Origin: Thermothielavioides terrestris NRRL 8126
Taxonomy: Eukaryota > Ascomycota > Sordariomycetes > Sordariales > Chaetomiaceae
Length of the DNA stretch: 64,000 nt
Reading direction: 5' to 3'
Assembly (NCBI RefSeq): GCF_000226115.1
Contig: NC_016459.1
Location: forward strand, 2,031,501 to 2,095,500
A program made the position numbers and the translations under genes. Positions 14,343 through 61,553 of this stretch are shown piece after piece (position 1 is the stretch's first letter; every line of letters begins with the position of its first letter). The notes beneath the pieces were generated by a model. The model was not told where the DNA came from. It saw only the letters and a program-made list of their open reading frames with translations, and searched no databases.

Positions 14343-15363
14343 TATAGGATTTGTCCTCTAGAAGCTATATAAAGCATATCTCTAGGCGGACATTAAGAAA
14401 TATAAATTCTATACCACTGAGACTAAGTTCCTTAAGTTTATCGTTAATATCGAAGGCGTCTAAGTAGACTTAAAGAAAATTAAGACAGTAGTTTCTTAGA
14501 ACCGACCTACTACTATATAAGGAGTATAAACCTTCCTTAGATTCTACAACTTTTACTACTAATTTATCTATAAGTATAGAAGGATTATATAACCCCTATA
14601 GCGCTTAACTGTTAAAGGAAAACTATTTAAATAGATTAAAGAGTATAAGGAAGCTTTCTAAGAACTTAAAAAGCGAATAACTAATACCCTACTCCTTAAG
14701 TACTACGACCCTACTAAGGAGAGTCGAATTAAAGTCGATATATCTAGCGGAGTTATAGCTAGAGTCTTCTAGTAGAAATACAACGATAGTTAGTACCCTA
14801 TTATATTTTTCTTAAAAACAATATCTAGACTAGAAAGTAATTACCCTATCTATAACAAGGAACTCTTTACTATTGTATATACTATCGAGGAATAGTACCT
14901 AATACTACTTAGTCTCTAATAGTAGTTTAATATCTTACTCAACTACTATATATTGCAATACTTTATATAGAAGAGGCTACTTAATATACAACAAGTAGGA
15001 TAGGCTAAGCTCCTCTCTGCCCTAGATTTTTAAATCGTCTACCAACTTAGTAAGTAGAACGCTATTGCCAACGCCTTGTCCTATAAAGCTAAAGAGCTCG
15101 CTACCTAGAAGGAAGTCTAAGAAGCCTATTATACCTAGACGGTCCTCTATAAGAGCAAACTAGACCTATAGATCCTAGAGGAACTAGAGTTACCGCCTAA
15201 GGAGCCTACTAAATACAATTTATAGTATATAATCTATTAAATCGAAGCTAATAAATCTAAGCTATCTCGCCTATAATGACTTAAAGGATATAAACTAGTA
15301 GATACTATCTTTAAAGTAAACTAGAAAAGTAAAGCCTTAGAGAGCTTCTAAGAGCTTGCCTAC
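14343..15363 (+). pseudogene. RT end and RNase H remnant of G2
   Basis: Reads FVL.KLYKAYL.ADIKKYKFYTTETKFLKFIV, the RT thumb region of Ty3/Gypsy elements. Farther on comes a QKYND.YPIIFFLKTISRLESNYPIYNKELFTIVYTIEE block, which is the RNase H region. Stops are frequent. The frame is cut by TRIM-B at 15364 and continues toward integrase after 15774. Confidence 0.75.
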
Positions 15364-15773
15364 TGTCGCGCATAGTATATAGGGTGCCCCTAGCCTTTGC
15401 AGGGCAAGGATGTCCTTTTGCCCGTTGTGACAGTTATGAGCCCGGTTCGCGCAGTGGTCTTGCATCTCGCCGGCCGTTCCCTGCGCATAGCAGCCACAAC
15501 ACGCAAAGGTCTATGGTTCGAACCACAGTCCGACCGGCTCGGTTTAGACCGTCGACGCCCTAGCGTGCAACGCTGATGGGGACCCTGGTCGGGTTACGGA
15601 AAGCGGAGAGTCTGGGAAAACAGAGACTTGTGCGTTTGGCAGCCCTTATGATTGGTTGTGCGTTTGGCAGCCCTTGTGGTTGACCCCCAAGGTCTGGGGG
15701 GGTGTGTCGCGCATAGTATATAGGGTGCCCCTAGCCTTTGCAGGGCAAGGATGTCCTTTTGCCCGTTGTGACA
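15364..15773 (+). mobile_element. TRIM-B: 410-bp LTR-like element with tRNA-like promoter boxes
   Basis: Identical-length 69-bp direct terminal repeats (15364-15432 and 15705-15773), TGTCGCGC...TTGTGACA, flanked by a perfect 5-bp TSD CCTAC (15359-15363, 15774-15778). A purine tract with seven G precedes the right repeat (about 15693-15704), as expected for a plus-strand LTR element. The 272-bp interior has an A-box-like TCGCGCAGTGG (15447-15457) and a perfect B box GGTTCGAACC (15515-15524). Flanking GAGCCCGG and CCGGCTC could pair like an acceptor stem, but the spacing does not fold into a normal tRNA. A 28-bp unit is present twice (15629-15656, 15657-15684). It is essentially free of RIP. 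It could be a very small TRIM or a tRNA-derived SINE carried between LTR-like repeats. Confidence 0.8.
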
Positions 15774-17537
15774 CCTACTAAAATAATACCAACTAGACTT
15801 TAAGCGACAGTAGCCTCCTACTAAAGGGAGGAAGGCTAACAATTCTATTAGATAGTTACTTATAGACCTACCTATTAGCTAAGATCTATAACCAAATCTC
15901 TATAGCCTACTTAGGTAGGAATAAGATATAAGAGTTAGTCTAAAGACAATACTTCTAGCTAAGGTAAATAGAAGATATCGACAAGTTTATCTAGAATTGC
16001 TAAACCTATTAACGTTCCTATATACTCTACAATAAGCTACTAAGCCTCTTTAAGCCTTTAGAAGTCCCTATAAGACCTTGGCAGTATATTACTATAGACT
16101 TCTATACAATGCTTTAAAATAAATTAGGCTACAACTAAGTCTTCGTTGTAGTAGATCGCTTAGGGAAGTATAGTTACTTACTCTCCTATTATAAGACTAC
16201 TATTGCTAAAGAGATAATATAGCTCTACTATTAATATATTTGATATACTTATAGAGCTCTAGAATCAATTACTTTAGACTAAGGCCCTTAGTTTATCTTA
16301 GTATTCTAGGACAAGTTCTATAAAATCCTTAGAATTAACCTACACCTCTTTTCTTTAGAGTACCTCTAGATAGATAGGTAGACCGAAATTATAAATCAAT
16401 ACCTCGACTAGCGCCTATAAGTATTTATTAACTATTTCTAAGATAATTAGTTAGAATTACTGCCTATAATCGATTTTATTTAAGCTATTTTATTCTATTT
16501 GTCTACTAGCTTCGCTTTATTCGAGGTTAAGACTAGTATACTCCCCTAGATAACCTATAATTAGTAAAAGTATACCTAAGAATTTAGTAGTACTAAAGAT
16601 AAGCTTAATTGTACTAAAGCCTAGGAGATACTCTCTAGAATTAATTCCATTGTCTAATTCGCTAAAGAAAGTATATAGAAAGTCTAAGAAGCCTAAAAGC
16701 GATAAGCGAATAAGTATCAACGACTAGAAGAATTTAAAGTTGACTAAGCGGTCTATATTATAAAGGGCTACTAGTAGATAAACCAACTAAATAACAAGCT
16801 TAATTACCTTATCGCTAGGCCTTTTCTAATTATCGCTAAGAAGGGTTATTCCTATAAGTTAAAGCTACCTAAGATCTAGAAGATATACCTAGTATTTACC
16901 TTAGATCAACTCTAGAAGGTACTAAATAACCTATTACTAGGCTAAGAACCTTAGCCTAAGCTACTGATTAAAGTAGATAGCGAATTAGAATAGTAAGTCG
17001 AAAAGATTCTTATCTCCTAAATATTTAAAGAGAAACTCTAGTACTACGCTAAATAGATTGGTTAAAGTAAGGATCTTAAATAGTATAATACTACTAATTT
17101 TAAAAATATACTATACCGCCTCTAGGAATTCTATATAGTATTCCACTATATAGCTAGACTACTATAACAGTTACTACAATAGCTAAAGGCTTATAAGGAG
17201 AATTACTTTAATAACAAATACCTAGATACTAATCTACTAGTATCTAAAGGACAACGCGACCTAACTTAATCTAGGAGACGTCGTATATATGTATAAACCT
17301 ACTATAAGGTCGTAGGATAACATTTTATCCTAGCTCCCTTATATACCTACTAGCCTAGATACAACGACTTATATAGCTTAGTAGGCTATAGGGCAGATTT
17401 CTAAGTCCTATAGAACTCAATTGTATAGACTTCGTAAAAAATAGGCTTGTAAGCTAATTCTTCTAATTACCAACAGCTAGCAGAGGACTATAACACATCT
17501 ATTGTATAGGTACAACGTTTTTTCGAAGACAGGGTAA
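15774..17537 (+). pseudogene. Integrase and chromodomain remnant of G2
   Basis: Translated through stops, this gives an integrase zinc-finger region (about 15,990-16,050), a core beginning near a PLEVP.RPWQYI-IDFYT block (about 16,060-16,110) with VFVVVDRLGKY (about 16,140-16,175), and toward the end a chromodomain-like string E-VEKIL.S..FK.KL.YY.K..G...L..YN..NFKN (about 16,978-17,112). The chromodomain places the family among chromoviruses. Tryptophans expected in it are TAG, consistent with RIP. The last ~400 bp up to the LTR are more diffuse and end with a G-rich tract. Confidence 0.75.
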
Positions 17538-52291: not shown

Positions 52292-52642
52292 AAATTCTAC
52301 TTTGGTATAATAGGAAGAGCCAACATCGAAAGGATTAAAAAGCGACGTCGCTATAAACGCTTAGTCGCTACAAGCTAGTTACCCCTGTGGTAACTTTTCT
52401 AGCACCTCTAGCCTTAAATTTCGAGGGACTAAAGGATCGATAGGCTACACTTTCATAGTTTATATTCACACTGAAAATCAAAATCAAGGGGACTTTTACC
52501 CTTTGTTCTATTAGAGATTTCTATTCTCTATAAGCCCCCCTTAGGACACCTGCGTTATAGGTTTAACAGATGTGCCGCCCTAGCTAAACTCCCCACCTGA
52601 CAATGTCTTAAGAGAGAGTCATAGTTACTCCCACTGTATACC
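52292..52642 (-). pseudogene. 28S rRNA fragment with internal deletion (right of L4)
   Basis: On the minus strand it follows conserved 28S: GGAGTAACTATGACTCTC-TTAAG, then jumps to ACATTGTCAGGTGGGGAG, GGCGGCACATCTGTTAAA, CAGGTGTCCTAAGGGGG, CTTGATTTTGATTTTCAG, ATCGATCCTTTAGTCCCTC and AAAGTTACCACAGGG. A few hundred bases that normally lie between CTCTTAAGG and GACATTGTCAGG are missing; the join falls on a shared AAG. Scattered C-to-T/G-to-A changes show it is a RIPed non-array copy rather than a working gene. Confidence 0.88.
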
Positions 52643-59872: not shown

Positions 59873-61553
59873 TCAGTCAACAGGCCGCGACCTCTGAGCG
59901 ACGACCTCGCGCGCATAGAATTCCACGAGCATGGTAGCGTACGCCTCCAGGTCCTCGACGGGCACGGCCAGGCGAAAGTCGTTGAGGAGAAGGAACTGCA
60001 GCTCCAGGTGGTTCAGTTCAGGGAGAGGAAGACCGCCAACCTGGAACCGGGGAAGGGGTACGTCAGCAGACGGTCTTTTTGAACAACCAAATTACAACTC
60101 TTGACATGGGGGAACGGGTGGAGAAAGGGCAGACCTTTGCGTAACGCGAGTTGGTATAGAACACATCGGAGAAGAATTTGCTGGCACAGGTCACCCCGGC
60201 AATGATTAAGCGGTGGATATTGAAGCTGTCGACAACGAAGTACGTGGCATGCGCAGCCGCGGCGTGAATGTTGGCATGGCTATTCGACGCGACGCTTCCC
60301 GGTTTTCTCCCTGCCTGCCCTACACTCTCGTCGTCGCCGTCTGTCGAATCCGCTAACTCCGAGTCCGTCTCGGTTCCTTCGCTCGAATCATCGTCGTCGT
60401 CACGCATGTCTGTGTCCTTATCCGGGTCGCTCGGCCCTGCCGACGTGTGCGCGGGTTGTGACTGCTGCTGATGCGGCTGGTGTCCTTCGAGCTGCACCCG
60501 CCGAGCCTCTTCGCTCTTCAACACCATATCGTTGACCCGCTCCGTCATCCGATCAAAGTAAACCAGCAGGCTGAGAAATACTTCGTACGTGGTCGGGCAG
60601 TATTTATGGATGCGGCTGAGGTAGCTTAGGATGGTGATAGCGGGCACGTTCTTGCCATGGAAGGCAAGGACACTGCTGCTTAGTGGGCTCATGCTGCTTT
60701 CCCCGGCGCCTTCATCGCCCCTCGCTTGCGCCTGTGCCTGCCTAAGGTGGTGCGCGTTGCGGTTGAGGGCGTCGTGCTGGAGGTCATTTGTGGTCGTGAT
60801 CTTGGTGAGAAGGGCGGCAACCATTTCTATAATATCGCCAATAGGCATACCACTGATATCGTATTTCATTTGTTGTAGGGGTGGATCGCTCAGGACTCCG
60901 GGCCTGGTGCCAGTGAGCAGGTCGGCCCTTGCCAGACTCTGAATGTGCGCAAGATCGCGGACCCGGATTGTTGTCTGCGTCTGAATCGGCGATTCAGGTG
61001 GGTCGTCAAGGGGTGGCGGAGCCAGGGAAGCTCCTGTCATCTGGACGTCGGAGGAGTTCCAGGGCGGCGCACTGTCGGACCCAGGGGAAGGCATGGCCCT
61101 CGACGGAGGCGGTATTACGGTCGCGGCCGTGCTCGCTGACGAGGCGCCAGAGTCGGAGGCAGAGAACGACCCGTGAATGGGGTCCAGCGAACCATCTCGC
61201 GGAATGTCGTGTTGTGGCTGCGTGCTGCCAGATGACGTTTCGGAGGGCGCATACGACGATGGAGGAGGGGAAGGTAGTCGAGCGGTGGTATCGGTGCGGC
61301 CGGGACGGGTCTGCTTGCCGCTTTGCTGTTGTGAATCTAACCTGTTCCGCGACTGGTTTTGCGCGGCTGCGACGGATCCAGATGCCCTCTGTGGACTCGC
61401 GGTCGAGCGTTGCGGGTGGTGAGATTGGGCATCCCGATCGCGGGATCGGCTGACAGAGCGGCTTTGATAGTGGATGTCGTGTGAATGGCCCCCCATCATG
61501 CCGTAAAAGCGCGAGGAGGAGTCAGCGAAAACATCGCCTATGAGGGCAGCCAT
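59873..61553 (-). CDS. PHO80-type cyclin, two exons, 528 aa
   Basis: Cyclin of the PHO80/PCL family, the partner of PHO85-type cyclin-dependent kinases. In fungi these control phosphate response (Neurospora PREG, yeast Pho80) and glycogen metabolism (Pcl6/7/8/10). Exons (minus): 61553-60135 and 60040-59873, joined in phase 0. Residues 1-230 are low-complexity (Ser, Pro, Gln, RS-rich), probably disordered. The cyclin box runs from about 237 (IGDIIEMVAALLTKI) through FHGKNVPAITILSYLSRIHKYCP (298-320), EVFLSLLVYFDRM (324-336), FNIHRLIIAGVTCASKFFSDVFYTNSRYAKVGGL (444-477) to LNHLELQFLLLNDFRLAV (482-499). An acidic Gln/Asp/Ser insert at ~344-437 splits it. The start has A at -3. It most resembles Pho80/Pcl7; the exact paralogue is unsure. 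Confidence 0.92.
60041..60134 (-). other. Intron of the PHO80-type cyclin
   Basis: 94 bp, donor GTCTGC (unusual beyond GT), branch-like GCTGAC about 25 nt before acceptor TTCCAG. Removing it joins YAK to VGGLPLPELN, restoring the conserved cyclin motif, which is the main evidence for this splice. Confidence 0.85.

Follow-up and report, generated by a model that had tools for sequence, protein, structure and literature searches.

A gene-less LTR retrotransposon of the TRIM/SMART type in Thermothielavioides terrestris and its likely Copia partner

The 410-bp element at 15364-15773 in the window (the whole stretch of 64,000 nucleotides of Thermothielavioides terrestris NRRL 8126 DNA analyzed here, C3:2031501-2095500) is very probably a gene-less, non-autonomous LTR retrotransposon of the TRIM/SMART type that would be served by a Copia family of the same genome, with RNA polymerase III (pol III) box-like strings that are probably fortuitous. 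The initial annotation had seen an LTR retrotransposon in its ends and a tRNA-derived SINE in its middle, and had offered a half-tRNA primer site of the Copia type as an alternative. The LTR retrotransposon reading has stood up well: all 13 testable loci show target site duplications (TSDs) of 5 bp, and solo LTRs, a primer-binding site, a polypurine tract (PPT) and a likely autonomous partner are found. Comparison within the genome supports the half-tRNA(Met) primer site as the key to the element.

Anatomy and genomic setting

The element is bounded by direct repeats of 69 nt at 15364-15432 and 15705-15773, which are 100% identical and run from TG to CA, and comparison of the flanks places the TSD CCTAC at 15359-15363 and 15774-15778. 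The terminal repeats and perfect TSD of the initial annotation are thus borne out, and both recur in other copies. All internal features are given on the forward strand. The 5' LTR starts with TGTCGCG, as does the Copia LTR, and contains a TATA-like GTATATAG. It is followed at 15433-15453 by a primer-binding block of 21 nt, GTTATGAGCCCGGTTCGCGCA, all of it common to the Copia family, whose nucleotides 1-13 (15433-15445) are complementary to the anticodon arm of tRNA-Met(CAT). Further along, two interior direct repeats of 27 nt, 93% identical, occupy 15628-15654 and 15656-15682 (span 15628-15682), and a PPT region TCTGGGGGGGTG at 15693-15704, likewise common to the Copia family, stands ahead of the 3' LTR, which shows no difference from the 5' LTR. 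Chance cannot reasonably account for the LTRs, the TSD or the primer site. A single stop-to-stop frame of at least 80 aa overlaps the element (94 aa, on the minus strand, continuing into the flank), and the element encodes no transposition proteins. Short TG...CA LTRs, a length below 1 kb, a fixed TSD and a primer site with PPT, the marks of TRIM/SMART elements, are all present; the remaining mark, an autonomous LTR partner with common cis-signals, is found in the Copia family, from which we infer mobilization in trans.

The insertion lies within a decayed retrotransposon pol (14701-15060 and 15989-16399), recognized by RNase H models upstream (2.9e-12 and 6.5e-12) and by a sub-threshold integrase core downstream (0.0024). 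Since the element sits inside this relic and has 57.8% GC against 32% in the surrounding DNA, it most likely inserted after the pol had decayed. Elsewhere, the window passes from AT-rich DNA to more than 50% GC near 52 kb, and a fragment at 52396-52627 on its minus strand matches model positions 2423-2812 of eukaryotic LSU rRNA with 193.6 bits and lies outside every full rRNA match there. Another minus-strand stretch, 60063-61553, encodes a protein with 100% identity, over 96% of its length, to a protein of strain NRRL 8126.

Copies in the genome

The initial annotation had proposed collecting the genomic copies with their ends and TSD lengths. Match counts in the 36.9 Mb searched (six contigs) are lower bounds: the whole element gave at least 17 matches, which resolve into at least 15 loci, eight with interior (L001-L008) and seven solo LTRs (L010-L016), with L009 counted within the tandem L004 and L017 within L003. 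The LTR as query gave at least 23 matches, all fitting the same 15 loci. An exact 5-bp TSD is present at every one of the 13 loci having both ends, which leaves out L004 (tandem, 5' side cut) and L008 (3' side cut). The duplications are CCTAC, CTAAG, CTTAT, TTATC, CAATC and GGAGA at loci with interior, and CCTTG, TATGT, CCCCC, CAACA, AAAGC, ATTCG and AAGAG at the solo LTRs, four of which (L013-L016) begin with a short variant of the usual LTR start, as judged by eye. A plain SINE would have been recognized by TSDs of variable length and a lack of terminal repeats, and the copies show neither trait.

Some of these copies are very recent. LTR pairs, counted at five loci (L003, L004 and L008 left out), differ at 0 (L001), 1 (L002), 0 (L005), 2 (L006) and 6 (L007) of 69 positions, and three interiors, that of the window copy among them, are 100% identical over 272 nt. 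Other copies are altered or rearranged. At L004/L009 (C1:8562627-8563150) a partial and a full copy stand in tandem with one LTR in common and carry C>T changes, and at L003/L017 (C2:9282089-9282532) the 3' LTR is partly duplicated. C>T at CpA is a hallmark of repeat-induced point mutation: all ten substitutions that separate the tandem copy L004 from the window copy are C>T, nine of them at CpA, and in L007 only 4 among 15 C>T/G>A changes are of this type. The flanks of all seven solo LTRs have 48-61% GC; those of six of the eight loci with interior have 30-40%, and the other two 59% and 54%. Searches of plasmid records for relatives of the element, and of viral contigs for relatives of the 21-nt primer block, found none.

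The primer-binding site

The half-tRNA alternative had pointed to TTATGAGCCC at 15434-15443. It is part of a 13-nt stretch, GTTATGAGCCCGG (15433-15445), that is exactly complementary to the anticodon arm in three of the genome's own tRNA-Met(CAT) genes, and the half-tRNA proposal is therefore right. An 11-nt primer sequence, GTTATGAGCCC, has 29 sites in the genome against five for the reversed control. All 29 could be classed: 22 are Copia-type, four belong to the TRIM and three are the tRNA-Met(CAT) genes themselves (L018, L031 and L042). Among the Copia-type sites, 18 were assigned by a script rule and four by eye (L025, L030, L033 and L041), their surroundings being changed or rearranged. 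TRIM copies L005-L008 carry substitutions within or beside GTTATGAGCCC; for this reason L005 and L008 escape the exact pattern, and L006 and L007 differ from it at the final base. At L033 (near 1501, C2:8138429), one of the sites assigned by eye, 15 nt of primer site come after a Copia LTR and are directly followed by sequence like that LTR in inverted orientation, possibly a product of self-integration.

Where the 13-nt complement ends, the tRNA-Met genes read CGCGC, whereas TRIM and Copia both read TTCGCGCA. This common departure from the tRNA argues for common descent of the two primer blocks.

A recently amplified Copia family as likely partner

The Copia family has LTRs of 182 bp and an interior of about 7.2 kb. 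Five stretches were examined; with L078 (which starts inside the element) and L077 (whose 3' LTR is slightly different) left out of the TSD reading, the three copies legible at both ends all have TSDs of 5 bp (CAAAT, TATTT and GAATA). A PPT junction lies 7.18-7.21 kb from 19 of the 22 Copia-type primer sites, which gives 19 full-length copies, and the 19 stop-free matches to RVT_2 in the genome fall, by coordinates, inside these same elements, although one frame has only 817 aa. The other 77 of the 96 RVT_2 matches contain stops. One copy, L080, has a frame of 1789 codons with RVT_2 (2.2e-33) and an SH3-like domain of retroviral polymerases (4.8e-15); in the Copia pieces compared with profile models, integrase-core and RNase H had no match at E <= 0.001 and gag_pre-integrs fell under its cut-off. 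Of the 40 LTRs scored among 90 candidates, 37 show 100% identity to the query LTR. The family (for example L079, L080 and L081) thus appears as a recent burst amid the 77 stop-interrupted RVT_2 matches, one that has apparently escaped repeat-induced point mutation.

TRIM and Copia resemble each other at the primer site, the PPT junction and the LTR start. They are identical over 23 nt across the junction of LTR and primer site, TTCGCGCA included, and 95% identical over 20 nt at the junction of PPT and 3' LTR; both LTRs begin with TGTCGCG and include GTATATAG. The LTR bodies differ, and beyond the common blocks the best match between the TRIM and one Copia copy has an E of 0.49. The pattern TCTGGGGGG(N)TGTGTCGCG occurs at 27 sites in the genome, namely 21 Copia LTRs and six TRIM junctions, and its controls at none. 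Since the TRIM carries the primer and end signals of an intact, full-size Copia, it is probably copied by that Copia, and the recently amplified family is its likely autonomous partner.

From this anatomy a life cycle can be proposed. RNA polymerase II would transcribe the TRIM from its LTR, with the TATA-like GTATATAG as a candidate signal, and Copia proteins would package the RNA. Reverse transcription would be primed on the anticodon arm of a half-tRNA-Met(CAT) and plus-strand synthesis at the PPT, after which the Copia integrase would insert the copy, leaving a TSD of 5 bp. Some observations count against a TRIM served by this Copia: the LTR bodies differ, the Copia pieces show no integrase-core or RNase H match at E <= 0.001 and a gag_pre-integrs match under its cut-off, and a good pair of A and B boxes is rare in shuffled interiors.

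Could a different helper have moved the element? The 77 stop-interrupted RVT_2 matches indicate that other Copia lineages existed, and a now decayed family could have mobilized the TRIM, the intact one being a cousin that holds its cis-signals by descent; the different LTR bodies would fit this. However, an exact match to the primer sequence and PPT junction is found in no other family of the genome, with the proviso that exact patterns miss decayed copies, and TRIM and intact Copia both have very recent, near-identical copies. A lost helper is thus unlikely.

The box-like strings and the pol III question

The A and B boxes that suggested a tRNA-derived SINE are indeed present as letters, 57 nt apart. 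The A-like TCGCGCAGTGG (15447-15457) has one mismatch to TRGCNNAGTGG, and the B-like palindrome GGTTCGAACC (15515-15524) is exact to GWTCRANNC, with one mismatch to GGTTCRANNCC; for both, a promoter role is putative. Taken at face value, they would favor an element whose interior has captured a tRNA, or a SINE of tRNA origin, and with it a working internal pol III promoter (A at 15447, B at 15515), that is, a TRIMp3 with its promoter inside and not in the LTR. At this stringency (A with at most one mismatch, exact GWTCRANNC, spacing of 20-75 nt) the pair occurs once in the 64-kb window, in three of 2000 shuffles of the interior and in six of 5000 with the first 21 interior nt fixed, and a stricter B box, GGTTCGANNC, brings the pair down to 0/2000 and 1/5000, figures that all overstate significance because the patterns were chosen after the sequence was seen. 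In 97 real control stretches of 272 nt, three definitions found the pair in 0, 0 and 1, and the interior is free of TTTT, which also speaks for this reading. Under looser definitions the pair turns up in 31, 40 and 94 of 2000 shuffles, and in 82 and 299 of 5000 with the 21 nt fixed; of these 5000, 490 contain a B box by itself.

Against a captured tRNA stand several results. Folding the interior with a tRNA model had been proposed as a check: ARAGORN returned no tRNA gene for the element, even with introns allowed, and Rfam gave no tRNA match and no 5S at gathering or permissive thresholds up to E 10. The interior finds only family members in the genome at E <= 0.01. Seven of the 11 A-box letters, the first seven, lie in the primer block that Copia also carries, and transcripts begun by pol III near 15440 would lack the 5' LTR. 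Across eight copies, mostly near-alike, the boxes vary as much as their surroundings, with two of 11 positions variable in the A box, two of 10 in the B box and 25 of 155 in the region 15433-15587; in a set this small and uniform, the figures fail to reveal the constraint expected of a type 2 pol III promoter and say no more than that. Lack of conservation of the boxes between copies had been put forward as grounds for refutation, and here the outcome is mixed: the A box is altered in three of the eight copies and the B box in three of the eight, and they are kept in the rest. The pairing flanks claimed for the boxes exist as GAGCC and GGCTC, but the fold they belong to is not clearly better than those of shuffles. 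An unusual RNA fold was rejected as such (z 0.48 for the interior, z -0.99 for 15433-15545).

Thus ARAGORN, Rfam, folding and the genome search with the interior lend no support to a tRNA or SINE origin, the hybrid of SINE and LTR element in the initial annotation is likewise unsupported, and a captured tRNA appears highly unlikely. For the most part, the tRNA-like look of the element's middle is probably coincidental: the two box-like strings would be fortuitous, and the A box is largely primer site. The LTR itself has no B box at one mismatch or fewer and no TRGCNNAGTGG A box at two or fewer, on either strand; a looser A pattern does match it, on both strands.

A further idea, which we regard as a long shot, is that the TRIM has a working pol III promoter laid over its own primer site, so that pol II would make an LTR-to-LTR RNA, and pol III another of about 320 nt that begins near 15440 and stops at the TTTT in the 3' LTR (15757-15760). 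If so, the pol III RNA might, for instance, compete for priming or regulate it, and promoter and primer site would use common bases; in Helenus, Ajax and Cassandra, by contrast, the promoters are LTR-borne. In any case, caution is called for where a primer site is of the anticodon-arm type, since such a site can pass for part of a pol III A box. A plain tRNA-derived SINE with chance flanking repeats would account for the box-like strings only, and is refuted to the point of being negligible by the identical 69-bp LTRs, the solo LTRs and the fixed 5-bp TSDs at 13/13 testable loci.

Relation to known elements

We take the TRIM family to be new and of a known kind. Among the open-licence PMC papers listed by literature searches, no title or abstract opening describes the 410-bp element, and excerpts of a paper on ascomycete Copia diversity (PMC5445492) contain nothing on TRIMs. 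A close parallel, likened by description and from another kingdom, is the grass SMART FRetro129, which according to excerpts of its report has 292 bp, 85-bp repeats, a 5-bp TSD and no coding region; its partner FRetro64 is a Ty1-copia element with another LTR body and with LTR motif, primer site and PPT in common (PMC3281118). In both cases a tiny gene-less element shares cis-signals with a Copia partner of different LTR body, but FRetro129 also has most of its interior in common with FRetro64, at 96% identity, whereas here the likeness is confined to the LTR start and the two junctions (PMC3281118, excerpts). Among ascomycetes, TRIMs related to Copia are described in Cochliobolus heterostrophus, to which the likeness is again by description (PMC4112212, in excerpt).

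Helenus is the nearest tRNA-bearing TRIM group. In fungi these small LTR elements have a 5-bp TSD, an anticodon-loop primer site, mostly for tRNA-iMet, and Copia as likely helper, and are reported from Pucciniales and a few Agaricomycetes (PMC10886601). The TSD length and the type of primer site recur here, but Helenus (TRIMp3) has tRNA-like A/B boxes in its LTR, whereas here they lie in an interior that matches no tRNA model (PMC10886601). Cassandra is another gene-less LTR element discussed in connection with pol III; it carries 5S sequence in its LTR, and Rfam finds no 5S here (PMC10886601). The primer-site type itself is that of Copia and Ty5, in which half-tRNA priming uses a site complementary to the anticodon region and not to the tRNA 3' end; these are autonomous, unlike the 410-bp element (PMC10886601).

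Near-identical, very recent copies exist of the TRIM as well as of its likely partner, so the two form a natural pair in one fungus. In this pair the cis-signals for mobilization in trans would come down to some 23 nt at the primer site, together with the PPT junction and the tips of the LTRs, and with such a pair the minimal needs of an LTR element for being copied in trans become testable.
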